A stretch of 64,000 nucleotides of DNA from Candidatus Woesearchaeota archaeon (GCA_030750765.1 JASMHM010000001.1:96541-160540); one strand, 5' to 3'; positions 12,324 through 59,907 are shown, counted from the first letter of the stretch. A program made the numbers and translations. Notes: generated from the sequence alone by a model not told the origin.

Positions 12324-13559
12324 ATGAGTAAACAGTGGGCAGCATTGATCAGAGGATTACGCGTTGATCAGAAGTTGAGTCAGATGGCTTTAGCTGAAAT
12401 TCTCCAAGTACATCGTGGTGCAGTTGGACGATGGGAGAATGCACAGCGAGTGCCGATACCAAAACTACAAGAACATTTGCGATCATACATACGCAGGAGA
12501 AGGCTAAGTCGGGACTTTTTGACAAGAAAGGGAAGGCAAATTATTCCCCTCACCCTAGCGAATAAGGTTTGGCTACCCCGAACTCCAGAACTGGCCGAAC
12601 TTATAGGCATTCTATTGGGTGACGGGGAGATAAAGAAGGACGGATCGCTTCGGGTCTCTTTTGATCCGAAAAAAGACATGAATTTCTTGCGGCGCAGAAT
12701 AATCCCACTCCTCAAAGGTTTGGTCAAAGTAAAGGTAGGCTTTGAAAGTTACAAGCGCATTCAGGTATTCAACATTGCTTTTGTGAGATTCTTACAAGAG
12801 AACAGCAAACTTCAACCTGGAAGCAAATTTGAATACAACTGGGCCATTCCGGCCTGGTGCTTTACAAAGGAGGAATACGTGACCAGTGTTCTACGAGGCT
12901 TGTTTGATACTGACGGATATGTGGGTTATTGCCTTGGTTCTGTTGAAATAATGTTTGGACGATTTTCGGATCGATGTGATAAGCTCACAGAAAGCATCGT
13001 CATGGCCTTACAGCTGTTGGGCATCAAGTCTAGTGTACAACACACAAAGGATGGAAGGTTTAAGATACGATTGAGCAGCCAAAGAATGGTTTTGCGTTTC
13101 TTCCAAAAAGTGGGCACCTCCAATATCAAACATCTTGCCCGTTTTCTCTTATGGAGACTGTCGCGCTATGAGGCCAAAATCGAACTTGAGGGACTCCCGA
13201 CCTTACTCAAAAAAGTAAAAAAGCGTTATGGAGTAGACCTGGATACAGAACCAATCCCCTTTCTTTGGCAGTCTCACCATCCCTCACTTGGAAAATATGC
13301 GTTAGAAGACACACAGATGGAAAAAACACGAACAATGCGCAACCTATATAAATGGAACGTTCTTGTTAGAGATAGTGTCCAAGTGTTAGGTATGACGTAT
13401 CTGGCGCAGCGAGTGAAAGCCACTCTACGTAGCATAAGGAAATGGCGTCAGGGAGTACGGGTTCCCTGCGCGAAAAACCTGCAAGTGCTGGTGGACATTG
13501 CAAAGAAAAACAAGATATCATTGGAGAAATACAGGATAAATCATGACGAAAAGCGTTGA
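12324..13559 (+). CDS. LAGLIDADG homing endonuclease with HTH domains
   Basis: A 411-aa free-standing endonuclease. Residues 5-50 form an XRE-type helix-turn-helix (LRVDQKLSQMALAEILQVHRGAVGRWENA). Two LAGLIDADG motifs follow: LAELIGILLGDGE near 91 and LRGLFDTDGYVG near 191, so one chain can form the two-motif active site. Near 355-380 a second HTH-like segment appears (LAQRVKATLRSIRKWRQG). The family cuts a long DNA site and spreads its own gene. Here it sits between spt5 and rpl11 and overlaps rpl11 by 17 bp. The TATA-like ATATAAGG is at about 12295-12302. Confidence 0.93.
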   Translation: MSKQWAALIRGLRVDQKLSQMALAEILQVHRGAVGRWENAQRVPIPKLQEHLRSYIRRRRLSRDFLTRKGRQIIPLTLANKVWLPRTPELAELIGILLGDGEIKKDGSLRVSFDPKKDMNFLRRRIIPLLKGLVKVKVGFESYKRIQVFNIAFVRFLQENSKLQPGSKFEYNWAIPAWCFTKEEYVTSVLRGLFDTDGYVGYCLGSVEIMFGRFSDRCDKLTESIVMALQLLGIKSSVQHTKDGRFKIRLSSQRMVLRFFQKVGTSNIKHLARFLLWRLSRYEAKIELEGLPTLLKKVKKRYGVDLDTEPIPFLWQSHHPSLGKYALEDTQMEKTRTMRNLYKWNVLVRDSVQVLGMTYLAQRVKATLRSIRKWRQGVRVPCAKNLQVLVDIAKKNKISLEKYRINHDEKR

Positions 13560-31929: not shown

Positions 31930-32096
31930 ACCCCCTCTTAGCGTTAGTTATTATAAAAAAGTATGGACCAAAAATGCCGTGAAACAAGAAAATATCCTTG
32001 TTTTTTCTTATTTTGTGGCTAAATAGTCTTAATTCGCACCGTTTACACTCAAAACAGCGCCAAAATCATTTTAAACTAGGGGAGAACAGAAGAGAC

Positions 32097-33473
32097 ATGG
32101 ACTGGCAAGCCGTCTTCGAATGTGTCGCACAGCTACAGACACTACCCCACAAAACAAAGGAAGATCTTGCCATCATAAAAGAAAAAGTGGACGACCTCAT
32201 CACCCTCCTATCCCAAGACGACACAGGATCAGGAGAAAGCCTTAACCGGACAGCAATCGACTTCCAAACCTACCTCGGCCACTTACTTGAGAGCAACTAC
32301 GGCGTTTTCCAAAAGATGGGAGTAAGAAGAATGCTCAAGCAGCTAGGAAGACGCGTCACCGAGCTTAACGCCATGTCAAAAAGAGAGTTTCTCAGGACCG
32401 CAGCAGCCGCAGCCATGGCACCATACATCAAACTTCCTCAAAACAAGAAAACCATCGGCCACCAAATACTAGACATAGAAGCCCCCTTGCACAACGGCAA
32501 GACCCCGCAAAAAGCATACGATAGATTAGACGAATTCATCAAGCGAGTGGGCAAGGAGCTCAAGAACTACCCAGAAAAGTATCACAAAAGCCCAAAACAC
32601 ATGCTGACCAACATCCACCGGTGCATCAAGATGGAAGGATACACCAATATCGAGAGTCAGGATTTTTTCAGCGTGGGATTGATCACGAAGAGAAAGGATT
32701 GCGACGTGGGCAGCATGCTCTTCATCAGCGCAGCCCAAGTGTATGGATTCCCCATCCGAGCAGTCATGATGCCCGGGCACTTGTTTGTGACGTGGGGAGA
32801 TACTCTAGACATTTGCTGGGAAACCACAACCAGTTTCTCTAAGGCCATGGAAACCAAAGAATCCCAACTGAGAAGCTACCGACAAAGCACTAATTTGCTA
32901 AGAAGCAAGACCTACATGCGAGCGCTAAGCAATGACGAGCTACTTTCCTACTACCATGCCAACGTTGCTAACAAAATCATAAACGAAGAAGAAAGACTTC
33001 CCCTAGCAGACGAGTATAGCAAGAAGTCAATAGAGCTCGGCCCGAACATGATCCAAAGCCACATGGTCCGGCTGAACGTGATGCATCGCCATTACAAGAA
33101 GGACATCGCCCACAGACCTGAACTTATCACCACCTACAAAAAGGCCCTCGCTCTCGACCAGGCTTCTGTTGACCCGCAAACAAGAGGGCTACACCATAAT
33201 CTGGCAATCGTGCTGACGTACCGCATCGCATGGAGCAATGCTAAGAAGATAGACTTTGAAGAAATGAAAACCCGGGCCCAAGCCGCGCCAATGAAAGACG
33301 AGTTTGTCGAAGCTAAGAAGCACATGAAAGCCAGCAGCCCTATTAGCAAGGACGGATGGCAAGAAATGTTCATCATCGCAGGTGTGCTCGGCGACACAAC
33401 AGGCGCACGCCAAGCCATACGCCATCTACGAGGCGTCAACATGGGTGAGTTCAAGTTCTGGGTGGCCTCATAG
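32097..33473 (+). CDS. transglutaminase-like/TPR protein with internal Tat-like motif
   Basis: A 458-aa protein. Residues 1-95 form a helical domain; 98-113 read SKREFLRTAAAAAMAP, which looks like a Tat signal but lies inside the protein. Residues about 125-260 are a SirB1/transglutaminase-like core with Cys in KRKDCDVGSMLF and His in MMPGHLFVTWG. The C-terminal 180 residues are TPR-like helices. The ATG at 32097 has a GGGGAGAA sequence upstream. Its close paralogue at 34089 has the same layout. Possible roles are protein cross-linking, protease-like or structural; substrate unknown. Confidence 0.75.
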   Translation: MDWQAVFECVAQLQTLPHKTKEDLAIIKEKVDDLITLLSQDDTGSGESLNRTAIDFQTYLGHLLESNYGVFQKMGVRRMLKQLGRRVTELNAMSKREFLRTAAAAAMAPYIKLPQNKKTIGHQILDIEAPLHNGKTPQKAYDRLDEFIKRVGKELKNYPEKYHKSPKHMLTNIHRCIKMEGYTNIESQDFFSVGLITKRKDCDVGSMLFISAAQVYGFPIRAVMMPGHLFVTWGDTLDICWETTTSFSKAMETKESQLRSYRQSTNLLRSKTYMRALSNDELLSYYHANVANKIINEEERLPLADEYSKKSIELGPNMIQSHMVRLNVMHRHYKKDIAHRPELITTYKKALALDQASVDPQTRGLHHNLAIVLTYRIAWSNAKKIDFEEMKTRAQAAPMKDEFVEAKKHMKASSPISKDGWQEMFIIAGVLGDTTGARQAIRHLRGVNMGEFKFWVAS

Positions 33474-34088: not shown

Positions 34089-35465
34089 ATGTGGAAAGAA
34101 ATCATAGAAATGGTGGCTGCCATACAACCTCTACCACACAAGACCAGAGAAGACCTTGTCCTGATCAAAGAAAAGATAGACGTGCTCGTAGACTTACTCA
34201 CTAAAGCAGAATACGCAACCGCTGAAGACTTCATAAAAACCACCCAAGCGTTTCAAGCACATCTAGAGCTTATGCTTCAACATGACAAAGTAGGTATGTT
34301 TCGCAGCATGAGCATAGGTAGAATGCTCAACCAAATAGGAAGGAAAGCCAACGATCTCAACATCATGGACCGAAGACAATTTATGAAAACTGCAGCTGCC
34401 GCAGCCATGGCACCGTACATCAAATTCCAAGGAAAAACAATAGGCCATGAAATCTTAGATATAGAAGCACCAATACATAGAGGGAGAACACCCCAGAAGG
34501 CGTATGACAACTTAGATTCGTTCCTAGAACGCGTAGGAAAAGAATTAAAAAGATATCCTGAGAAGTTTCACAAGAGCCCTAAGCACATGCTCTCTTGCAT
34601 CCATCGATCTATCCTGATGGAAGATTTTGAGATCATCGAAAGTCAAGAGTTTATTAGCGTAGGTTTCGCAACAAAAAAAAGAGACTGCGATGTAGGAAGT
34701 TTGCTGTTTTTGAGCGCTGCAGAAAGATATGGATTCCCCATAAACGGCGTGATCATTCCCGAACACATGTTTGTTTGTTGGGGAAAAGATATGAAAATGA
34801 TCTGGGAAACCGTTAACAGCACGGGCAGTGCCCAGATGACAAAAGAGGAAATGCTCTGAAAACATAATCTACGGAACTCAATCTACAAAACCGCAACGTA
34901 TATGCAGGCCCTCTCCCGCAAGCAAGTGATCTCATTTTACTATGGGCTGGTTGCAGACAACACCTTGGACAAGAAAGGCATGTTCTCCAAAGCTGAAGGT
35001 TTTAGCAAGAAAGCCCTAGAACTCGGTCCAAAAATGTTAGGCAACAAGTTCATACAAGTCAACATACTGTACAGAAAATTCATGAAAGACATAGCAGTAA
35101 GAGAAGAAATTATCAATGCCTACCGAGAGAGTTTGGCCTTAGACCCAGGATTGGCGGATCCTCGCATGCCCCTAATGAACCTCTACCTCTCACACTTACT
35201 CACCTATCGAATGGAGCCAAAAAACAGCAAGAAGATCACCTTCGAAGACATGAAAAAAAGAGGCGCCCAGGAATCTGTGCGCAAGGAGTTTATGGAGGCC
35301 AAGCAAAGTCTATGGAAATACCTGTCATTTAAGCCCAAACGCGATCTTTGGAGAGAGCTGTACTTCATAGAAAGCATACTTGGCGATGAGCAGAAGGCTG
35401 CAGTCGCCCTACGTCGAGCAAAAGGCGCAAACATGGCAAACAACCACTTCTACGTTCCTGAATAG
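34089..35465 (+). pseudogene. transglutaminase-like/TPR paralogue broken by in-frame TGA
   Basis: A paralogue of the gene at 32097, read in one frame of 459 codons with a TGA at 34857-34859. Before it are the helical domain, the Tat-like MDRRQFMKTAAAAAMAP, and the Cys (KRDCDVGSLLF) and His (IIPEHMFVCWG) motifs. After it the TPR part continues in the same frame (TYMQALSRKQVISFYYG against TYMRALSNDELLSYYHA in the intact copy). The TGA replaces an Arg codon, so CGA to TGA fits. Either a young pseudogene, a split protein or a sequence error. Confidence 0.8.
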
Positions 35466-42925: not shown

Positions 42926-43834
42926 ATGAAGCGCAAACTTGTCAGACAGGGAAAGAACGCCCTAACACTTACTCTACCCATCTCTTGGACACGAGAAAAG
43001 GGCCTAACAGCAAAAGACGAGGTAGAAGTCACCGAAGCAGACGGAGACCTAGCGATTAGTGCGCAAGCCAAAACCAAGCCCAAAGCGACATCCTTACACT
43101 TGCGATCGGGGAACCAAAAGTATGTGGAAGCACTTTTTAGAAATTTGTACATTAACGGATATGACGAGATAGAACTAACATTCGAAGGCAAAAATGATGA
43201 GCTCAACGTGGCCAAAGCAATAGAATCATTGATAGGGTATGAAATCACCCTTCAAAACGCAAAAGGATGCACGGTCAAGAATCTCTCACCCTCCGAATAC
43301 GCCGAATACGAGAGTTTGTTCAAAAAAATATGGTACGCTACCTTTTCCATGCAAGAGCTAGTCCAGGGTGCCATGAACAAGAAAACAAACAAACACGATA
43401 CCGCAAAGATGGAAGAATTGAGCAAACAAGCCTCCAAATTTTCTTGTTTTTCGAGAAGAGTCATCTTCAAGATGAACATGTATAAGGATGAGGAAGGGCT
43501 AGCCAAACATGTTATTATCAACCTTGTCCATATGATGGCGAGGAATTATGCCACCATTTACGCACATCTAAAGAATCCCGTAAAGTCAACAACACAAGCG
43601 TACGAAAGGGACACGCAAGAGTTCATACGCTCTTTATTCAACGCATACTGTAAAAAAGACATGGCAGGCGTGGAAAATGTTCTCGCACAAAGAAAACCAT
43701 TACTTGAAAAAGGGTTAGCAAATATGAAAAACGATCCGGTAATTATGCATTACCTGTTAGAAATCGTGCGCTTATGCGGCACCGCTGCGGGCAAGGTCGG
43801 TTTTGTAAACGCGCTGCAAGTTCTCAAGAGTTAG
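42926..43834 (+). CDS. PhoU-like phosphate uptake regulator with AbrB domain
   Basis: A 302-aa protein. The N-terminal 45 residues form a SpoVT/AbrB-type DNA-binding fold (RKLVRQGKNALTLTLPISWTREKGL). The rest is helical and PhoU-like, as in archaeal PhoU homologues fused to AbrB. Such proteins regulate phosphate transport, but no pst genes are here. A GATTTAAATA box lies about 30 bp upstream. Its last 63 bp overlap the convergent kinase-fold gene. Confidence 0.85.
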   Translation: MKRKLVRQGKNALTLTLPISWTREKGLTAKDEVEVTEADGDLAISAQAKTKPKATSLHLRSGNQKYVEALFRNLYINGYDEIELTFEGKNDELNVAKAIESLIGYEITLQNAKGCTVKNLSPSEYAEYESLFKKIWYATFSMQELVQGAMNKKTNKHDTAKMEELSKQASKFSCFSRRVIFKMNMYKDEEGLAKHVIINLVHMMARNYATIYAHLKNPVKSTTQAYERDTQEFIRSLFNAYCKKDMAGVENVLAQRKPLLEKGLANMKNDPVIMHYLLEIVRLCGTAAGKVGFVNALQVLKS

Positions 43835-45196
43835 ATCACCAAACCTTTGGTTGCGTAAGGGATTCATAATTCTACTTAGCGCACTTTGCAATCCTGTTTT
43901 CTTGGTGCCTCGCATTCTGCTCACAGCATCCTGTGCCTTGCTCACGTGGTAGAGCTGACGATTGAGTTCGTTAATTTTTCTCTCGTCCAAGGAATATGTT
44001 TTCGTTTCTCCAGGAGCCTGAGAGAGGTCTCGTTGGGCATACCCAACATACTCTAAGTGGCGTTGTAGGCGAGCGCATTGTAAGAGTTCGTTCGCCTGCG
44101 CTAGCTCTTGTTTATCGACGTGGGAATGGAATGTGCCCTTGTTTTTGTGGTTGGTGTATCTTCCTTTGTGGTCTTGGATGAATTCTCGGATTTCTTTCTT
44201 GACATGTTCATCTTTTGTTGATTCTATTTTTCTTTCCAACAAGTATTGATGGAATAAGTCGTCGCGCTCTTCACGTGACAGATAATCTATGAAGCTTGTG
44301 TGTTCGGCATTCAACTTTCCAAACTCTGTCAGGCTGACAAAGTCAAGCAACCCTAAGAGTTTTTTTCCACCGTCGTTGTCCAGCAAGGTAACGTTTCCTT
44401 CATTACAAACAATATTGTTTGGTCCGTGATCAGAATAGTACACTGCGTCTTCTAAGCTTGCACGTACGAGTTCATCGTTCACCGCGCTGTAGGCTTGGAT
44501 GAGCTCATCTGCGGCCTCTTCAAATTGCCCTACCTTTTTTTCTCCCAACAACTCTCCGAGATATCCTAAGGTCTGATCTTTGAACACCGCGCTTATACGC
44601 CGGGTGAAGTAGTCAGCGTCCTCTGCCACAGCATCCAATACATAATGCCCTTCTCGTTCTCCTTGTAGGCCTCGTTGTTGGAGCTTGACTAGTTCTGTAA
44701 CACTCTGTCGCAAGTAATTTGTTATAGTTTGGTTTCGTATGTATTGTTGTTTTGACCGAAGCACTTGACCAAGCGTCTCTCCCTCTACATAGGGCATCAA
44801 GGAAACATGGTGGTTTGTGCCGCCTATGTTGAGGTCGAAAGTACCTAAGGATTTTGCCACAGGTATGTCATAGTCTGCCAAGAACTTCGTTATGTCAGCA
44901 GGATTGGCTCCGAATTTGAGAACGAAAGATTGCTCTCCGAGCGTGATCATGTACACCGGGTTGGAGGCGTACACGCGAACATCTGCGTTTTCGATAGAAG
45001 GCGTATCAACAGACGCGGTGCGAAGACCGTTTTCTTGGAGGCAGTCTTGGACCGTGTCTAGGACATTATTTACGTTGGTTTCGTTTACAACGCTTTCTCC
45101 ATGAGTCAATTGCGTTATGGTTGCTTGGGAAGCGATAAGACTAGCTAGCGCATGAATGCCACCTTCAGAAAGCCTGTTTTCTAGTGTTAAAACCAT
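43772..45196 (-). CDS. APH/protein-kinase-fold protein
   Basis: A 474-aa protein with a kinase-like domain in residues about 85-310. The ATP-lysine is in QSFVLKFGA, the catalytic loop is YSDHGPNNIVCN (a HxDxxxxN-type loop with order changed), and the metal Asp is in VTLLDNDGGKK. This is nearest to aminoglycoside/choline phosphotransferases. The C-terminal 130 residues are helical and charged. The start at 45196 has GAGGGGAC just upstream; ATGs at 45220 and 45250 are too near a TTTATATA box. Substrate unknown. Confidence 0.7.
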   Translation of the reverse strand: MVLTLENRLSEGGIHALASLIASQATITQLTHGESVVNETNVNNVLDTVQDCLQENGLRTASVDTPSIENADVRVYASNPVYMITLGEQSFVLKFGANPADITKFLADYDIPVAKSLGTFDLNIGGTNHHVSLMPYVEGETLGQVLRSKQQYIRNQTITNYLRQSVTELVKLQQRGLQGEREGHYVLDAVAEDADYFTRRISAVFKDQTLGYLGELLGEKKVGQFEEAADELIQAYSAVNDELVRASLEDAVYYSDHGPNNIVCNEGNVTLLDNDGGKKLLGLLDFVSLTEFGKLNAEHTSFIDYLSREERDDLFHQYLLERKIESTKDEHVKKEIREFIQDHKGRYTNHKNKGTFHSHVDKQELAQANELLQCARLQRHLEYVGYAQRDLSQAPGETKTYSLDERKINELNRQLYHVSKAQDAVSRMRGTKKTGLQSALSRIMNPLRNQRFGDLTLENLQRVYKTDLARSGAA

Positions 45197-45320
45197 GTCC
45201 CCTCGTCTATAACGTGTCATTTCTAGTATATAAATCTTTCTCTTTGTCATTACTTAAAAGGGACTATTTATAAAGGGGGGAGGGAGTAACCTATATAACC
45301 CCACTATCCTGCCATCAACC

Positions 45321-46271
45321 ATGCTCATACCCTTACTCAAAGCCAAAATAACCACCAAGCCTTTCATTCTCTCTCACCTCCTCACCCAACGTTGCAATCT
45401 GGACTGCCCTTACTGCTTGTGGAAAGACAACAAAGCGAACGAACTTTCTTTAGAACAGATAAAAACCATCCACACCGATGCTGCAAAGACAGGATTCAAA
45501 GCGGTCTTCCTCTGGGGTGGCGAACCCTTCCTACGAAAAGACCTCCTAGAAATAGTTCAGTATGACAAAAAGTTAGGGTGGAGGGTAACCATCGCAACGA
45601 ACGGATGTTTTGTACGAAAAGACGCACTCCCCTACATTGACGAAATGCTCATAAGCCTAGACGTTGCCTCAAGCAAACAAGACCAAATCGTCAAAGGAAA
45701 GAACGTTTTCAAAAAAGTACAAGAAGCAATCACCCTCACCAAAAAGCACAACCCTGCATGCAAGATACGACTGTGCGCCGTTCTTAGCCAGCACAACAAG
45801 AAAGACTTGCGAGAGCTAGCCAATTTTGCCCAAGCACAAGGTTGCACGCTCGTCCCACAACATATTGACTCCAACCCAAACTACCCAAATGATTGCGATC
45901 TTAGCCAGAAAGAAAGGGACGAGGTTATCGAAGAACTACAAACTCTAAAGAGAGAAGGACTTCCACTAGCAAGCTCATGGGCGTATCTGGACCAATTCAA
46001 AAGCCCAACAAAAACCTTCCAGTGCAGAAGTCAAAGAGTCTACTTCACCGTGTGGCCAGACGGTGCAGTAAGGTCCTGCATGACTAGAGAAAAAATAGCC
46101 AACGCGCTCACCACCCCCATCAAAACCATACTCCGCTCACCAAACTACCAAGCATTCCTTTGCAAAAGTAAAAACTGCGCACGGTGCAGAGATGCAGGAA
46201 CACTAGAAACAACGATGGCCCACAATCTACAATTAGAACCGTTACTGAACACCATCAAAAACTTTGGCTAA
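45321..46271 (+). CDS. radical SAM protein with C-terminal Cys cluster
   Basis: A 316-aa radical SAM enzyme. The cluster motif is CNLDCPYC (Cys25, Cys29, Cys32), followed by LWGGEPFLRKDL for SAM. Near the end, CRSQRVYFTVWPDGAVRSCM and CKSKNCARCRD form a SPASM-like auxiliary cluster region. Such enzymes modify peptides, proteins or small molecules; the neighbours do not indicate which. The gene stands alone after CCTATATAACC (TATA, about 25-30 bp upstream). It is separate from the cluster at 52619. Confidence 0.9.
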   Translation: MLIPLLKAKITTKPFILSHLLTQRCNLDCPYCLWKDNKANELSLEQIKTIHTDAAKTGFKAVFLWGGEPFLRKDLLEIVQYDKKLGWRVTIATNGCFVRKDALPYIDEMLISLDVASSKQDQIVKGKNVFKKVQEAITLTKKHNPACKIRLCAVLSQHNKKDLRELANFAQAQGCTLVPQHIDSNPNYPNDCDLSQKERDEVIEELQTLKREGLPLASSWAYLDQFKSPTKTFQCRSQRVYFTVWPDGAVRSCMTREKIANALTTPIKTILRSPNYQAFLCKSKNCARCRDAGTLETTMAHNLQLEPLLNTIKNFG

Positions 46272-52618: not shown

Positions 52619-53926
52619 ATGAGAGTTCCCAAGCAGATGAAAATGGTTCTTGATTATACGTGCCAGCACGAGTGCGAGCACTGCTATAACCCTGGGCGGG
52701 CAGGAAGTGCTGCCCCCACAGTTATCTCTTCACCTTCCACGGTGCGCAGAATCATTGCAGAATGCGGTAGTTACGGCGTAACAAACATGAATTTCACAGG
52801 GGGCGAACCTTTGTTACATCGAGACTTGTTATTTGCAGGACTGCGAGCAAGCCATGAATGGAACATGTACCCATCGGTGAACACTAGCCTTATAGCTCTC
52901 CAAGAAGGAGATATCGATGTCTTCCAAGAAGTTAACATTGTGGGACTGAATGTTTCTATGCCACACCATCGCAAGGAAGAATTTAATCGTATCACTAGAA
53001 GCAATAATTACGATCGCTTTATGGACCGATTGAACCTGTGCAAAAAACGGGATCAAGTAGTGACGGTCAACACGGTCGTGAGCAAAAATACTTGGCAGGA
53101 TACGTACGATGCAGGAAAATTCTTGCATGAAGAATTTGAGCTTTTGAATTTTGGGGCTTCGCCAGTATATCCTACGTGTGCCGAGCACGCAGACCTCATG
53201 TTGGAGTCTGGGCAGATTGAAAAAGTGTATGACATGCTCTTGCAATTGAAGGAAGATTTTGGCATGAATATAGGAACGTTTAGGGCTGTTGTGCCTTGCT
53301 TTTCTTCAACACCCGAAAAATACATAGAATTCACCCGAGGGTGTGGCATGGTTCGTACAGAGCTCACCGTTCTGGCGAATGGCGAGGTCAAAGCTTGCGA
53401 CGCCTTTCCCATGAGGTATGGCAATATGTTGCAAACGCCGCTTGATGAATTACTGGACTCTACCGCTCCTTTTTTGCCGTACGAAAACGGAGAATTGTTC
53501 AAAGCATTTCCCTCCGAGTGCGAGCCGTGTGTTGAGAAATTGCATTGCAGGGGCGGTTGTCGCATCGAAGCGCTCGTGGTCAACGGATCAATTGATGCAC
53601 CCAATCCTTACTTTACCCAACCGTTAACAGAAAGACTATTCACAGAGTATGTTGAGCTGCCTGACCTAGGAGTAGGATTGCTAAACGTAAGTATACCAGA
53701 AAAACAAACAGGACAAACAGATAGCGGCATACCCCTTTACGAGGGTTGTGATAGAGACCTGTTTAGCGAAGAAGAGTTAGCGTTACTGCACCTCCTACAA
53801 TTGGAGAAGCAAAAGAATCACCCCGTGGATGCAAACAAGTTTAGATTAAAACACCGTTTGCGTGACGACTTGCTACGCGCATTCTTATCAAAGCTTTCTG
53901 ATAATGCATTGATAGCCAGACCATGA
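52619..53926 (+). CDS. radical SAM/SPASM enzyme
   Basis: A 435-aa radical SAM protein. The cluster motif is CQHECEHC (Cys15, Cys19, Cys22), then NFTGGEPLLHRD for SAM. The SPASM region near 245-325 has GCGMVRTELTVLANGEVKAC and ECEPCVEKLHCRGGC, the pattern of auxiliary Fe-S clusters in peptide-modifying enzymes such as PqqE. The last 90 residues are an extra helical domain. CTTATAAG lies about 25 bp upstream of the ATG (leaderless). It overlaps the next gene by 4 bp and leads an operon of five. Substrate unknown. Confidence 0.93.
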   Translation: MRVPKQMKMVLDYTCQHECEHCYNPGRAGSAAPTVISSPSTVRRIIAECGSYGVTNMNFTGGEPLLHRDLLFAGLRASHEWNMYPSVNTSLIALQEGDIDVFQEVNIVGLNVSMPHHRKEEFNRITRSNNYDRFMDRLNLCKKRDQVVTVNTVVSKNTWQDTYDAGKFLHEEFELLNFGASPVYPTCAEHADLMLESGQIEKVYDMLLQLKEDFGMNIGTFRAVVPCFSSTPEKYIEFTRGCGMVRTELTVLANGEVKACDAFPMRYGNMLQTPLDELLDSTAPFLPYENGELFKAFPSECEPCVEKLHCRGGCRIEALVVNGSIDAPNPYFTQPLTERLFTEYVELPDLGVGLLNVSIPEKQTGQTDSGIPLYEGCDRDLFSEEELALLHLLQLEKQKNHPVDANKFRLKHRLRDDLLRAFLSKLSDNALIARP

Positions 53927-54948
53927 ACTCACTAAAAAACAGGATTCCAAAGGCTAGCTTCGAGGATGCAAAAACTAAGGCCAAAAGAGTTTTTGCGGAC
54001 ACTCGAGATGTTGGCAATCGCGTGCTTTCCATAAATAAAGACTATGTTATGCTATACATCCCAGATTTTTCGAGATTCATGATTGATATGAATACGGACA
54101 TCATCCAAAATTCTTCAGCAGACTATAGCCCAGATCGTCCGATTGTTTGTCAAGAAGTAGAACACGGAATTATCGCGGTCGATATTACTACTGCCATTAG
54201 TGACTACGTCATCGTTCAAGGGCTAGAATCTCCCGAATTCTTCCCAACAATAATGCGAAGAGAGAGGTCTCGTAGGCTAGCCGTGGAGAAACATTATAAG
54301 CGGGCACAGCACAGAAGAACGCCTGACAATCTAGAACAGATGTATCAGTCATTTATTATGTATAATCGCATGCGATTTGACGATATCGTTCCACACTGGC
54401 ATTTGGAGAGGCTTTTGAAATCATCTAAAGTAGATGCGCATACCTTTTTTGATCTTATCACTCCACCACAACAAACCGAAAATTACATCCTTGCAATAAA
54501 GAACGGAATGGATGATCTGGCAATAAGTCAAGCAGCAGGCATGCCAATGGAGGGAAAAATACGAAAGTTCATTCGTGATACTGGTTTTTTGTCTATCACC
54601 GACTTAGAGGAAGGAAGATACGAACAGCCCGAGTTCATAAAATCAGAACTAGCGAAAAGAGGAAAGAGATACGCAAGAGAGGTTTTTGAAGAAAGACAAG
54701 AAAGTTATCTAAAGAGGCGAATCAATCTCCACGAATATTGTGAGAGTAGGCACGCACTTGTCAATGCACCCAAAACATCTGCAGCGCGTAGACGAAGACG
54801 GGAATTACTTGAATTCATCAGATTAGCCTCGGACTTTAATGAGAGAAACCGAGTTTACCGATCTCACCTACTACGACTTTTCAGGACCCACTACCAACAA
54901 AACGCCAAAGATTGTCGGAACCTCCCTCGCCAGGAGGCATACGCGTGA
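53923..54948 (+). CDS. unrecognised protein in the radical SAM operon
   Basis: A 341-aa protein of unknown family, coupled by 4-bp overlaps to the genes on both sides. The N-terminal 100 residues look alpha/beta. The rest is mainly helical, basic and Glu/Arg-rich. The segments VPHWHLERLLKSS, ITPPQQTENYILAI and GFLSITDLEEGRYEQPEF faintly recall the middle part of PEP-utilising (PEP synthase-like) enzymes, but the swivelling His domain is absent. I treat that likeness as weak. Confidence 0.75.
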   Translation: MNSLKNRIPKASFEDAKTKAKRVFADTRDVGNRVLSINKDYVMLYIPDFSRFMIDMNTDIIQNSSADYSPDRPIVCQEVEHGIIAVDITTAISDYVIVQGLESPEFFPTIMRRERSRRLAVEKHYKRAQHRRTPDNLEQMYQSFIMYNRMRFDDIVPHWHLERLLKSSKVDAHTFFDLITPPQQTENYILAIKNGMDDLAISQAAGMPMEGKIRKFIRDTGFLSITDLEEGRYEQPEFIKSELAKRGKRYAREVFEERQESYLKRRINLHEYCESRHALVNAPKTSAARRRRRELLEFIRLASDFNERNRVYRSHLLRLFRTHYQQNAKDCRNLPRQEAYA

Positions 54949-55907
54949 TAAATGTTTATTATGCATTTGATCCCATGCAATTACTGTACCTTGGCGAAGG
55001 AATGCTCATCACCCCCGAACCTTACACACAAAAAGCGTTCGTTGATACTGCAAGAGCACTTAATCGCAATCTACAATGCGTTACTGATCATGAACTTGAA
55101 GATGTAGCACACGAAACTGTGAATTTCTTCCCAGGAAGTTTAGCAAGAAACGCAGTGAGGGAATATCTTGATCTTCTTCAACCCCGACTTTATGGAAGCG
55201 ATGTAGACCCTTCAATTATCATGAACACTTTTGAGAGCTGGTTTGGCAAAGTAAGAACGTTTGAACAGCTCAATCAGCACTTATCCGATCTAACCCAGCA
55301 CGTTAGGGGAGTGTGTACTACCGAAGGCCTCCGGCAAAACCCCCCAGAACCACCATTCATGATAAAAGCAGCATATGGTTGCGGAGGCACAGGTAACCGT
55401 ATAGTGCAGTCCTTACATGAATTAAACACCTTTCTAGAATTTGTGGAAGCAGGAGGGAGTACTCTAGAAATAGAGGATCATGAACAGTACGTAATAGAAG
55501 CCATACTTCCGGTAGTGAGAAGTCCAGCTAGCTCGCTTTTTGTCAGAGATGATTCGATCGAAAACCTAGGAGTATGGGACCAGACCATTGTTAAAGGGCG
55601 TTACAATGGAGCAACATGTCCGTCTGAAACCAAACATCTAGAAAGGCTTATGGAGGCCAAGGCACACATTGGCAAGCTTCTCCAAGAAGAGGGATATCGC
55701 GGACCGGCAAATGTGGACTTCATGGAAACGGATGAGAATGTCTACGTTTCTGAAATCAACCTGAGATATGGCTACAGCCATTGCATGGCTGCCTACGCTA
55801 AAGAGAAAAAAATAGAAAGATGGAGCATTATAGCCCATAACGATAAACTTAATAAGTGCCAAGAGTATACGCTAGACAGGAAGCATGTAGTGTGCTGGGA
55901 GAAATAA
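54945..55907 (+). CDS. ATP-grasp ligase
   Basis: A 320-aa ATP-grasp protein from a GTG start. AGGAGG at 54932-54937 is the best ribosome-binding site in the cluster and fixes this start 8 bp away; GTG overlaps the preceding TGA. Motifs: the glycine-rich lid PFMIKAAYGCGGTGNRIV, the QYVIEAILP strand, and the metal-binding end GPANVDFMETDENVYVSEINLRYGYSH (Asp, Glu, Asn, Arg). The family joins a carboxylate to an amine or thiol through acyl phosphate, for example in peptide natural-product pathways. Confidence 0.9.
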   Translation: MINVYYAFDPMQLLYLGEGMLITPEPYTQKAFVDTARALNRNLQCVTDHELEDVAHETVNFFPGSLARNAVREYLDLLQPRLYGSDVDPSIIMNTFESWFGKVRTFEQLNQHLSDLTQHVRGVCTTEGLRQNPPEPPFMIKAAYGCGGTGNRIVQSLHELNTFLEFVEAGGSTLEIEDHEQYVIEAILPVVRSPASSLFVRDDSIENLGVWDQTIVKGRYNGATCPSETKHLERLMEAKAHIGKLLQEEGYRGPANVDFMETDENVYVSEINLRYGYSHCMAAYAKEKKIERWSIIAHNDKLNKCQEYTLDRKHVVCWEK

Positions 55908-55909
55908 CA

Positions 55910-56137
55910 ATGAAATATGTGCAAACGGATACAGTACCGCCAGTTCCTATCGTAGAGCCTGATTCTGCAGAAGCAAGAGTTATGAAACTATTAGGCGTTT
56001 TTGCCGCGGATAACCGAATGGAAATGGGCTTTAAAAGCGCATCTTTCTGGAGACAACACGTAGTACCAGAAGACTACGACGTCTTTGAAGGAGACATTGA
56101 CCGCAGATATGCGGCTTGCGTTGCAAGCAGCCCATGA
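55910..56137 (+). CDS. small protein, possible precursor or adaptor
   Basis: A 75-aa protein from the ATG at 55910, two bases after the ATP-grasp stop, with GGGAG upstream. The N-terminal half is Pro/Val-rich (TVPPVPIVEPDS); the second half is more ordered (MKLLGVFAADNRMEMGFKSAS) and ends RRYAACVASSP. It overlaps the peptidase gene by 4 bp. Size and position fit a substrate peptide for the radical SAM, ATP-grasp and peptidase enzymes, or a binding adaptor. No core-like repeat proves this. Confidence 0.7.
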   Translation: MKYVQTDTVPPVPIVEPDSAEARVMKLLGVFAADNRMEMGFKSASFWRQHVVPEDYDVFEGDIDRRYAACVASSP

Positions 56138-56814
56138 GCACCTGGTCTACCAAGAACTACCGCGTTGAATCAGCCGATACTAGCGTACATTTTCAAGAAT
56201 GCATATCGAACGCATACGCTAGAAACGTTGAGTATTTTGAGAAAGATATACCTTTCTTTTCGATCGTGGTGGAAGAGCCCCCCGTCACTGCAGAAAACGC
56301 AAATAGTTGGCTAATAGGCACGCCAGGCTACGGAAGCAGCCCGCTCACTGTCAAAGGCCCCCGATTCCTGGAAAAAACGCGAAAATACATTCTTAAAGAT
56401 TTTGAAAACTTGGTAACACATGAAATGTGCCACAGGTTTCAACTCGCACATTTTGATTTTACCACGCCTTGCTGGTTGTATGAAGGCATGGCAGGCCACG
56501 TGGGAGAGCAAACGCCTGCAGATAGATACTGGTGGGTGCTCGAACGAGGCATTAATGAACTTGCCGAGTTGCATCGACCGGCCCAATTTTATGCTCTAGG
56601 CGACTACATTGGAGCCTTTTCGATAGCTTACGTTTTGCATACGCTCAGCGATAAAAAAACAATAATGAAATTCATGAGTCAGAGTACTCGGGCTGACGAT
56701 TTCGAAGAATCCAGCAAGACATTCGAGAACGTGTTTTCGTTCAGTATAGACTCCTTATGTGAACGCTGGCTTTCCTATCTTGAATCATCTCGACCCGAAC
56801 GTTCAAAAACATAA
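56134..56814 (+). CDS. HExxH zinc metallopeptidase (gluzincin-like)
   Basis: A 226-aa protein. The zinc motif is VTHEMCHRFQLAHF (HEMCH), followed 19 residues after the second His by CWLYEGMAGHVGEQ, giving the third ligand Glu and the E-G-M-A turn of gluzincins (MA clan). There is no signal peptide, so it acts in the cytoplasm. In a peptide-modifying cluster it could remove a leader. It is the fifth gene of the operon. The end overlaps the convergent radical SAM gene by 40 bp. Confidence 0.88.
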   Translation: MSTWSTKNYRVESADTSVHFQECISNAYARNVEYFEKDIPFFSIVVEEPPVTAENANSWLIGTPGYGSSPLTVKGPRFLEKTRKYILKDFENLVTHEMCHRFQLAHFDFTTPCWLYEGMAGHVGEQTPADRYWWVLERGINELAELHRPAQFYALGDYIGAFSIAYVLHTLSDKKTIMKFMSQSTRADDFEESSKTFENVFSFSIDSLCERWLSYLESSRPERSKT

Positions 56815-58253
56815 AAGAAGTCTTCGGGAGCATCATGCGTTGATACTTCTGAGACAACATCCGCACGCTCACACACCTCCAGCAAATCAAGAACTCCTTG
56901 CCTGACGCTTCCATACTCAAAATTCTGCTGCAGCGCCCGAGAGGTGAGTAAGTTCATGAAATGGTAGAGCACGCCCGTCCGTCGGTCTGTAAATCGGTAT
57001 CCTGCGATATCCTCTCGAGTATCCAAAATTCCTTTTGCCTCCCATTGATTAATAAAACGTGTTCCCTTATACGGTACCACCCTCTCAGAAAGATTTGACA
57101 GGAAAAACTTGGTGTGGTACACACTCACATCTGAGACGTGTCTAAGATACGCAAGAATGTTTTCCTTTGCGTCGTTAAAGGGTAACTCGGCATGGAAGGG
57201 CAGCATAAATAGCGAATAACTGTGTCCAGACTGCTGTAATAACCTGATAGCCTCCAGATTGGTTTCCACTGTAAGCTCTTTATCATAAAAGTCAAGCAAA
57301 GGTTGATGTAGTGCCTCTATACCTAAGGAAATCGATAACCCGTCCTTAGATCCTTGAAGATCCTCAACAAGAGACGAATCTTTAGCAGCTAGTTTTGCAA
57401 ATATTTCTGAAGCGTGAGGATATTCACTCATAAACTTCACATACTGATCTGCCCGGCCCTCCAACGCCATCTTAAAGCGATCCCTACCCTCAACAGAATT
57501 CGCAACATACGATAGTATGCTCAAAGCGCGCGCTCTATCGTCGCTGGAAAAACCAAAAAACTGTTCATCATTAATACGGAAACACTCAAGATCCTCATCC
57601 GCAAATAACGCGTCCAACTCGACAGCAAGGTTTTCCATGCTGCGAGAACGATACCGTCTACCATAGAGCTGTTTAGCTGAACAATAACCACAGTCAAAGA
57701 CACAACCTCTTGATGCAACCACCGCAGCCACAGAATATTTCTGGCGGGAATTGCTAGAAGGAAAAATATCCCTTCTAGGCGGTCGCAGACTGTTAAGATC
57801 CGGTTCAATGTTGATAGCGCTTAGCTCACCCTCTAAACCCTTGATTATTGGTGGCGATCCTCCCGAATCAAGAGCGTTCACTAACGCGTTGAAGGGACGT
57901 TCTCCCTCACCTCTAATAACAAAGTCCGCGAAATCAATCGCAGAAGGAGCTAGAGTTGGAAGATAACCACCCGCAACTATCGTTGCGTTATCCCGAGCCG
58001 CACGTGCAACTTCCCTTGCAGCATCAATAGTTTCTTCCAGAACACTGATACCTACAACATCTATCTCATTTTCTTGTAACGTTCTCAAGAGTTCTTGCTG
58101 TGTGGCTTGCGCACCAAGAACGTTACCCAAAAAATTCATGTCAAGACCGAACACGTTATGTTTTTCGTCCAAATTACCCGCGAGGTAAGACAAGCCTAAT
58201 GGCGCAAACCGGGATGGAAAAGTCGCGTGAGGTTGTACTAACAAAACATTCAT
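56775..58253 (-). CDS. B12-binding-type radical SAM protein
   Basis: A 492-aa protein. The N-terminal about 130 residues are a cobalamin-binding-type fold (MNVLLVQPHATFPSRFAPLGLSYLA ... IDVVGISVLEET ... ATIVAGGYLPTL ... FVIRGEGE); the usual DxHxxG motif is not obvious, so cobalamin binding is uncertain. The radical SAM cluster is SRGCVFDCGYCSAKQLYG near 195. A C-terminal region of about 150 residues follows. B12-type radical SAM enzymes often methylate or rearrange. It overlaps the upstream HemW-like gene by 4 bp. Confidence 0.9.
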   Translation of the reverse strand: MNVLLVQPHATFPSRFAPLGLSYLAGNLDEKHNVFGLDMNFLGNVLGAQATQQELLRTLQENEIDVVGISVLEETIDAAREVARAARDNATIVAGGYLPTLAPSAIDFADFVIRGEGERPFNALVNALDSGGSPPIIKGLEGELSAINIEPDLNSLRPPRRDIFPSSNSRQKYSVAAVVASRGCVFDCGYCSAKQLYGRRYRSRSMENLAVELDALFADEDLECFRINDEQFFGFSSDDRARALSILSYVANSVEGRDRFKMALEGRADQYVKFMSEYPHASEIFAKLAAKDSSLVEDLQGSKDGLSISLGIEALHQPLLDFYDKELTVETNLEAIRLLQQSGHSYSLFMLPFHAELPFNDAKENILAYLRHVSDVSVYHTKFFLSNLSERVVPYKGTRFINQWEAKGILDTREDIAGYRFTDRRTGVLYHFMNLLTSRALQQNFEYGSVRQGVLDLLEVCERADVVSEVSTHDAPEDFFYVFERSGRDDSR

Positions 58254-59350
58254 GATGCGACCTCCTGATAAAAGAGTTGTAGTCCTGCGCTAGAATCTTC
58301 GGGGTTGATAACTAGCGTATCTCCTCGCTCCACTAAAGCACCGTTCTCCAACAAGGAAGAGATTACGCGAAGTACGCTCGGATCCTCCTCAAATTCTTGC
58401 AGTCTCCTCTTGTTAATCATGCCATCCCTAAGCATTCCTAATCGAAAAAAAGGCTCTTGGCACTGCACAAGCGGTAACGATACTATCTCAGGATTATCTG
58501 GGTCAAAGGAGACGGCGGATTGAATATTGGTTGAGAGGCTTTGATCCAAAAGGGACGTGGCGCCTGCTCCAACCCCAAAAATATTATCTCGCAAGGCAAA
58601 AAAGTCTCTCTGGTACGGGCCTGGGTTTCCTCGACTATAAGTCTCCAGCAAGTAGGGGTCATAATCCGAAGACACTAGTAAGTCAACAGCATCTGCGTAC
58701 ATTCGTGAACATTCTTCTAGCGTAGGGATAGGTACGCCCCCCAACCGCTGCAGGAGGGATTGACCCTTAGGAAAGTTCGTCTTCCATCGGTTTAAGGTAA
58801 CGCTATCCGCATCAGGGCAAAAGGCCTCCACATCCCGCATGAAGCTTTCACTTGATTGCCCTAGGAGTCCGTATATTAAGTCTACATTTACGTGCTCGAA
58901 ACGGCGAAGGTTATCAAACGCCCTCATACTTTGAGAAGCACTTCCTTTGCGACCCATATGATGCAAAACATCTTCCTCTAATGTTTGGACACCAAGGCTG
59001 ATTGAATTAAAGCCCAAGTCATCTAGAATCCTGATTTTCTCATTAGTTGCCGCTTGTGGAGAAGTTTCGATGGTTAGAGTAACATCATCAGAAAGAGTCA
59101 ATTCACCGATAGCATGCATTATCACAGAAAGGTCGGCAGGAGCAAGTAATGTGGGCGTTCCCCCACCTATGTACACGGAAGTTATCAGGTCCGACGGAGT
59201 TTTCCGAATTTGACGGGCTACTTTCGGCACATATTTCTCTACCTCAGAAGAATACTCAACAATATGTGGAATGTTACAATAATCGCATTCGCTAGCACAA
59301 AAAGGAATGTGCACGTACAAGTTTATACCTTCCTGAGTCTCCCAGGCCAT
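58250..59350 (-). CDS. HemW-like radical SAM protein
   Basis: A 366-aa HemW/HemN-type radical SAM protein. The motif is YVHIPFCASECDYC (Cys18, Cys22, Cys25), followed by SVYIGGGTPTLL, TIETSP and NSISLGVQTLEEDVL, all typical. The fourth Cys common to HemN (CxxxCxxCxC) is absent: CNIP here has Asn. It is followed by a winged-helix-like end. Heme chaperone, methyltransferase and other roles occur in the family. The start at 59350 is about 25 bp after a CTTTAAGAG box. It leads the two-gene operon. Confidence 0.9.
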   Translation of the reverse strand: MAWETQEGINLYVHIPFCASECDYCNIPHIVEYSSEVEKYVPKVARQIRKTPSDLITSVYIGGGTPTLLAPADLSVIMHAIGELTLSDDVTLTIETSPQAATNEKIRILDDLGFNSISLGVQTLEEDVLHHMGRKGSASQSMRAFDNLRRFEHVNVDLIYGLLGQSSESFMRDVEAFCPDADSVTLNRWKTNFPKGQSLLQRLGGVPIPTLEECSRMYADAVDLLVSSDYDPYLLETYSRGNPGPYQRDFFALRDNIFGVGAGATSLLDQSLSTNIQSAVSFDPDNPEIVSLPLVQCQEPFFRLGMLRDGMINKRRLQEFEEDPSVLRVISSLLENGALVERGDTLVINPEDSSAGLQLFYQEVAS

Positions 59351-59423: not shown

Positions 59424-59828
59424 TTAATCACGCAACCTTTCCCGCACCTTTTCCACTATGTCTTCGCTTAGCTCTTCTGACTCCACTCCGCTACCAAAAG
59501 TCTTGTCCTCGAACGTTTTGCCTGCAAACTCTCGTTTTTCTTTGTATCTAGGTATCAAGTTCACATGTAGGTGTGGGTTAGAATTTCCTAGTTGGGTCAC
59601 GTTGAACCAGTCCGGCTTCCAGAGCTTGTCTAGTGCTCCTCGCACGTCTTTTATCACTTGTTTAAGCTCTGCCAGTTCTTCCTCGGTTAGCTCATCAAAA
59701 AAGCTAACGTGTCTTTTCAGCATCGCATGCGTCCATCCTAGGGGCGTTTGTGCTGCTGCAGAAAGCTTCCAGTATTTGTATTCCTTGATAATCCTTGGAC
59801 TGTTGAAATCGCAGAGTTCGCATTCCAT
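59424..59828 (-). CDS. HIT-family protein with altered histidine triad
   Basis: A 134-aa HIT-like protein. The N-terminus has CELCDF (a Cys pair as in zinc-binding HIT proteins). The triad region is GNSNPHLHVNLIPRYKE, where HxHxH reads H-L-H-V-N; the first two His remain and the third is Asn. The family hydrolyses or transfers nucleotides (dinucleoside polyphosphates, AMP-amino acid adducts). The start at 59828 gives the family's usual N-terminus. Its 3' end is duplicated at 52479, flanking the radical SAM cluster. Confidence 0.85.
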   Translation of the reverse strand: MECELCDFNSPRIIKEYKYWKLSAAAQTPLGWTHAMLKRHVSFFDELTEEELAELKQVIKDVRGALDKLWKPDWFNVTQLGNSNPHLHVNLIPRYKEKREFAGKTFEDKTFGSGVESEELSEDIVEKVRERLRD

Positions 59829-59907
59829 GCTTGATCTTTGTTGATGAGATATAAAAATGTTGGGCATGCGAAGCAAATACCAACCGCACATACTATATCA
59901 CTCAATG

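Follow-up and report, generated by a model that had tools for sequence, protein, structure and literature searches.

The question raised by this locus is what three radical SAM enzymes, an ATP-grasp ligase, a zinc peptidase and two further proteins, encoded side by side in an archaeon, might make together. The window (the whole 64,000-nucleotide stretch of Candidatus Woesearchaeota DNA analyzed here) belongs to a 1.14 Mb genome with archaeal rRNA genes, and all seven open reading frames of the original prediction were found in it, at the coordinates given there or very near them. Five lie on the plus strand and are here called operon A: a SPASM radical SAM enzyme of 435 aa (52619-53926), an orphan protein of 341 aa that is mainly helical by prediction (53923-54948), an ATP-grasp ligase of 320 aa (54945-55907), a 75-aa protein that we propose as the precursor peptide (55910-56137) and a gluzincin-like HExxH zinc peptidase of 226 aa (56134-56814). 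A convergent two-gene pair on the minus strand, operon B, encodes a B12-binding-domain radical SAM protein (56775-58253) and a HemN/HemW-like radical SAM protein (58250-59350), both of uncertain membership in the pathway. The tight packing claimed for operon A was borne out by the gene order as read directly. The SPASM and 341-aa genes overlap by 4 bp (ATGA), as do the 341-aa and ATP-grasp genes when the ATP-grasp start is taken as the GTG at 54945 and not as the TTG given by the ORF tool; a 2-bp gap separates the ATP-grasp and 75-aa genes, and the 75-aa and peptidase genes again share 4 bp. The two genes of operon B also overlap by 4 bp, and operons A and B share 40 bp at their 3' ends in the window. 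No transporter or immunity gene adjoins operon A, a point against a peptide pathway.

The broad family labels first given to these proteins hold in Pfam and NCBIfam (Radical_SAM plus SPASM, ATP-grasp_3, and B12-binding plus Radical_SAM), and in neither collection does any of the seven reach an equivalog cut-off; the 341-aa and 75-aa proteins have zero matches there. The CX3CX2C motif is intact in all three radical SAM proteins, as are the CX2CX5CX3C motif of the SPASM domain and the ExNxR motif of the ATP-grasp. The peptidase label is backed by an intact motif (HEMCH...WLYEG) and a match to a BSP-type profile, although that match is sub-threshold. The label HemW-like was right as to kind, the protein having a Radical_SAM domain of the HemN/HemW type, but too precise, because every curated cut-off is missed, with scores of 126.7 versus 205 for HemW, 155 versus 380 for STM4012 and 137 versus 400 for ChuW/HutW.

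All seven genes are colinear in the closest named relative that we found, the congeneric Woesearchaeota MAG ARS49 (locus L009, genome G006), with protein identities of 71-85%, and pN/pS values of 0.14-0.33 across the genes between the window and ARS49 point to purifying selection. Colinearity combined with low pN/pS argues that the cluster is more than a chance assembly. In G120, a genome of another family, the five operon A genes are retained at 20-36% protein identity in a different arrangement, the peptidase and ATP-grasp genes being divergent from the SPASM, 73-aa and 342-aa genes. Because these five genes are rearranged yet remain together, we take the genes of operon A to be a functional unit. 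A single seven-gene unit across relatives, as originally predicted, was not what we observed: the recurring core has five genes, whose arrangement differs in G120, and only in the genus did we find the B12-type gene. The exact seven-gene cluster occurs in two genomes only, both of one genus, and an ATP-grasp member was found in three genomes only, so that the boundaries drawn for the core rest on few sequences; several of the relatives' loci end at contig breaks.

Operon B may be independent of operon A and merely its neighbor, a reading that is compatible with a peptide pathway encoded by operon A and that we consider a serious possibility while leaning slightly away from it. The pair lies on the opposite strand, its B12-type gene was found in 2 of 338 genomes of the order, both in the window's genus, and the short G120 contig has no such pair. 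With the B12-type gene found in this genus only, operon B would be at most a lineage-specific addition. Adjacency says little here, since a HIT-family gene (window 59424-59891), probably unrelated to the pathway, sits beside operon B in both congeners and is equally conserved in place, which weakens the neighborhood argument. Against independence, operons A and B run into each other at their 3' ends in both species, and in the genome G478 the SPASM and peptidase genes are directly adjoined by another B12-binding radical SAM gene (L036, 1285-2835), whose product is dissimilar by profile to that of the window.

We consider it likely that operon A encodes a RiPP pathway, in which the 75-aa protein would be the precursor, the SPASM enzyme would modify it, the ATP-grasp would form a bond on it and the peptidase would release the product. 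Such a pathway in a DPANN archaeon, as originally suggested, is well supported by a recurring set that we observed at 14 loci, where a SPASM gene is accompanied by a small variable ORF and in most cases by a HExxH peptidase. SPASM profile searches of the entire order and of a sample of the phylum (371 genomes) gave twelve further RiPP-type loci (L034-L039 and L066-L071), the surroundings of which were read. L034 is cut by a contig end, so that its small ORF is unreadable, and the other 11 have one; with the window, L009 and L011, this makes 14 loci in the phylum at which an ORF of 56-86 aa lies beside a SPASM or peptidase gene. The peptidase profile finds matches in eight of the twelve (E = 8e-12 to 2e-18), and L066 and L039 carry other HExxH proteins. 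Four to seven (4-7) cysteines are present in 12 of the 14 small ORFs, mostly within one variable stretch (for example RCEIPLPCRCDCNCRECECDG, DYCIACDRCDVCDVSCN and YDCDSGDSCDGDGGCDGGSCDGGD), against a background of 23% of all ATG-started ORFs of 50-90 aa in the fetched loci that have at least 4. Very different small peptides accompany related SPASM sets across the phylum.

The 75-aa protein of the window resembles these Cys-rich proteins little. Its single cysteine, C70, is likewise the only one in ARS49, at residue 70, and its C-terminal tail ends in ...VFEGDIDRRYAACVASSP; no further copy of the protein was found elsewhere in the genome. The N-terminal part is variable and residues 38-75 are nearly invariant in the congener, with a pN/pS of 0.26 for the whole gene, 0.36 for the N-terminal half and 0.13 for the C-terminal half. 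An LGx[FY] motif at residues 27-33 is common to the small proteins of the window, ARS49, G120 and G460, whose SPASM enzymes form a clade, and 0 of 20,000 joint shuffles reproduced it, a result that overstates the weight of the motif because it was chosen after inspection. A single cysteine and a strongly constrained C-terminal half are what would be expected of a folded subunit, and BesA and other amino-acid ligases are the closest relatives of the ATP-grasp, so the 75-aa protein might instead be a small accessory subunit or chaperone in an operon that makes a small molecule from metabolites. We regard this as distinctly unlikely: the G120 counterpart (73 aa, tail ...TDCYDNGCNECHRTCPT) has 21% identity to the window protein, and counterparts in the family have hypervariable Cys-rich stretches, which fit a substrate better than a subunit. 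We infer that the 75-aa protein is the substrate.

In the SPASM enzyme, C15, C19 and C22 together with C227, C242, C260, C301, C304, C310 and C314 are invariant in seven members of the family. The 15 RiPP-type enzymes form one group in the SPASM tree (96/94), and the window, ARS49, G120 and G460 form a clade inside it (97/98). The best profile for the window enzyme is PqqE, though at 66.6 versus an equivalog cut-off of 381, and the MftC mycofactocin radical SAM model (33.3 versus 265) and the PapB maturase model (44.9 versus 340) are likewise far from reached. It is very unlikely, in our view, that the product is a peptide-derived cofactor with a near-fixed core, like PQQ or mycofactocin, and not a diversifying secondary metabolite. 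The combination of SPASM enzyme, small protein and peptidase is that of the PQQ and mycofactocin pathways, the PqqE profile ranks first, and the 75-aa tail is nearly invariant between the two congeners; however, the G120 protein ends in a completely different tail, the PqqE and mycofactocin scores are far below cut-off, and occurrence within the taxonomic family is patchy (2 of 26 genomes, counted by the 341-aa protein). In PADLOC the radical SAM domain only weakly matches prokaryotic viperins, and a PHROGs search gave nothing of note. Another conserved radical SAM set in the phylum was seen in two distant genomes (L041, 7290-9815, and L073, 7193-9604), where a gene for an AAA ATPase lies together, in the same order, with genes for a radical SAM protein of SPASM-like type and a small protein that begins with MSC(S)GK.

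The C-terminus of the SPASM enzyme (residues 337-435; 53627-53926, plus strand) is probably a RiPP leader-binding domain, possibly an RRE/PqqD-like winged helix, to judge from its model. The AF2 prediction has three strands followed by three helices (E18-21, E27-30, E36-38, H48-63, H69-75 and H80-92) at a pLDDT of 80, and this βββ-ααα order is the topology expected of PqqD/RRE domains. Sister loci without the C-terminal extension carry a separate gene for a protein of 83-93 aa; the MftB chaperone is matched weakly by one of these proteins and by one fused tail (E = 0.003 and 0.008), and in profile comparison the remaining fused tails align with the separate proteins only marginally. Profile comparison does not align the tails of the window clade with those proteins, and the fold and profile searches of the C-terminus against the PDB gave weak matches to winged-helix proteins (best E of 0.5 in the fold search) and winged-helix regulators, respectively, none of them significant.

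A profile search of the PDB with the ATP-grasp returned, at E ≤ 0.01, BesA and biotin-dependent carboxylases only. Among solved structures the amino-acid ligase BesA is its closest relative, although the ATP-grasp scores 35 bits to the curated BesA model, against a cut-off of 750 bits. This relationship leaves room for a carrier-type reaction, in which the ATP-grasp would charge the 75-aa tail with an amino acid or amine, the SPASM enzyme and the 341-aa protein (in this genus perhaps with the B12-type enzyme) would rebuild that end, and the peptidase would free a small molecule. We hold this scaffold chemistry to be unlikely; to our knowledge, no assembly line that uses a peptide as carrier has been described in archaea. 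It is more improbable still that the locus is a graspetide pathway, in which the principal reaction would be the formation of lactone or lactam rings by the ATP-grasp and the SPASM enzyme would be secondary, and we give this proposal the least credence. Many graspetide ATP-grasps come with SPASM enzymes (PMC8939145), and the 75-aa tail has acidic residues and two serines, but the PDB search did not go beyond BesA and the carboxylases, and most related SPASM loci have no ATP-grasp relative. A search of plasmids gave no relative of the ATP-grasp. In the window the HExxH peptidase gene lies next to the small ORF, and it has homologues in most related loci, making its product a candidate leader-removing enzyme.

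Homologues of the 341-aa protein were found in 5 of 353 genomes of the order, and in all five (window, L009, L011, L034 and L065) the gene adjoins a radical SAM gene. A radical SAM neighbor in every genome and the lack of a known domain make this family a clear target in the search for new partners of radical SAM chemistry. Its AlphaFold model (pLDDT 49) is unusable and gives no assignable fold; no relatives were found in viral contigs, and PADLOC gave one marginal match. The presence of the protein on the SPASM tree needs at least two changes, so that either it has been gained or lost repeatedly or some absences are contig breaks. At L065 (1117-5596) the family member lies between a SPASM radical SAM gene and a xylose-isomerase-like TIM-barrel gene, with a 135-aa protein encoded upstream, and the radical SAM enzyme that it adjoins there is quite different. 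Resemblance had suggested that the 341-aa protein might be a helical domain of PEP-synthase-like type, but this candidate assignment was rejected, with a probability of 0.2% against a protein encoded beside a split PEP-utilizing mobile domain and no match in Pfam. At L072 (7271-10779), PqqD-like and SPASM genes lie by a second radical SAM gene, a 340-aa orphan and a stand-alone PEP-utilizer mobile (phosphohistidine) domain.

In the RiPP pathway that we favor, the N-terminal part of the 75-aa protein, with LGxF/Y, would serve as leader and the C-terminal tail as core. The SPASM enzyme would grip the leader, probably through its C-terminal winged helix, and use radical chemistry to crosslink the core or otherwise alter its side chains, the product being perhaps one thioether at C70, a carbon-carbon link with aromatic residues or another change, with the 341-aa protein as a putative accessory of this radical step. 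The ATP-grasp would then form an amide or ester bond on the core, and the HExxH peptidase would cut the modified peptide free. In this genus the operon B pair may modify it further, for example by C-methylation. We infer the order of the steps, the chemistry of each and any part played by operon B.

The genomes of DPANN archaea are reduced, and many of these organisms are believed to live attached to hosts. A genome of 1.14 Mb would here devote 4-7 kb to an apparently dedicated modified-peptide pathway, in a phylum where such pathways have received very little study. A common base of SPASM enzyme and peptidase appears coupled to many different Cys-rich peptides in Woesearchaeota and related lineages, and the related loci form a concrete, testable set of candidate signaling or antagonistic peptides.

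Elsewhere in the window, a radical SAM protein of 316 aa whose C-terminus is rich in cysteine (45321-46271, plus strand) is encoded divergently from a 492-aa phosphotransferase-like protein (43772-45250, minus strand); the pair, just upstream of the rRNA operon, is possibly another small pathway. Between Spt5/NusG-like and L11 genes lies a gene (12324-13559) for a 411-aa protein that starts with an XRE-type HTH and has an apparent LAGLIDADG homing-endonuclease region. Tandem copies of a protein with a Tat-like RREFLRTAAAAAM/RRQFMKTAAAAAM stretch occupy 31998-33473 and 34089-35465, and the reading frame of the second copy breaks into two ORFs near 34860-34902, which suggests a frameshift or a sequencing error.

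The novelty claimed for the cluster stands for its composition, an ATP-grasp and the 341-aa protein joined to the rest, and not for its kind, because radical SAM-type RiPP clusters (ranthipeptides and sactipeptides) have been mined from archaeal groups including DPANN (PMC12144867). For Nanoarchaeota the same survey counts 221 clusters when every kind is included (PMC12144867), and expression of other cluster kinds is reported there (PMC9902471). Our search of a literature library found no paper joining Woesearchaeota, radical SAM and RiPP, and none joining Nanoarchaeota and SPASM. What is new is the composition and the peptide of the cluster, with no new principle on present evidence.

Compared with ranthipeptide and sactipeptide clusters, the locus is alike in that a SPASM enzyme with the full set of Cys motifs adjoins a small precursor-like ORF, that the small ORFs of its relatives are Cys-rich and that the enzyme weakly matches PapB-type maturases. 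It differs in adding an ATP-grasp, the 341-aa protein and a gluzincin-like peptidase and in a proposed precursor with one cysteine, without several thioether-donor cysteines, so that it is assignable to neither class. With PQQ and mycofactocin clusters it shares the SPASM enzyme, peptidase, small protein and perhaps a leader-binding domain, here possibly fused, but it has no orthologous set, and its core is not conserved beyond the genus. Some graspetide clusters are known to include SPASM enzymes (PMC8939145), and here too an ATP-grasp adjoins a precursor-like gene and a SPASM enzyme; the ATP-grasp, however, is ATP-grasp_3/BesA-like and not MdnB/MdnC-like as far as sequence search shows, and no ring motif was identified. 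BesA and MfnD are among the nearest curated relatives of this ATP-grasp, which is set apart from both by its place in a peptide-type cluster.
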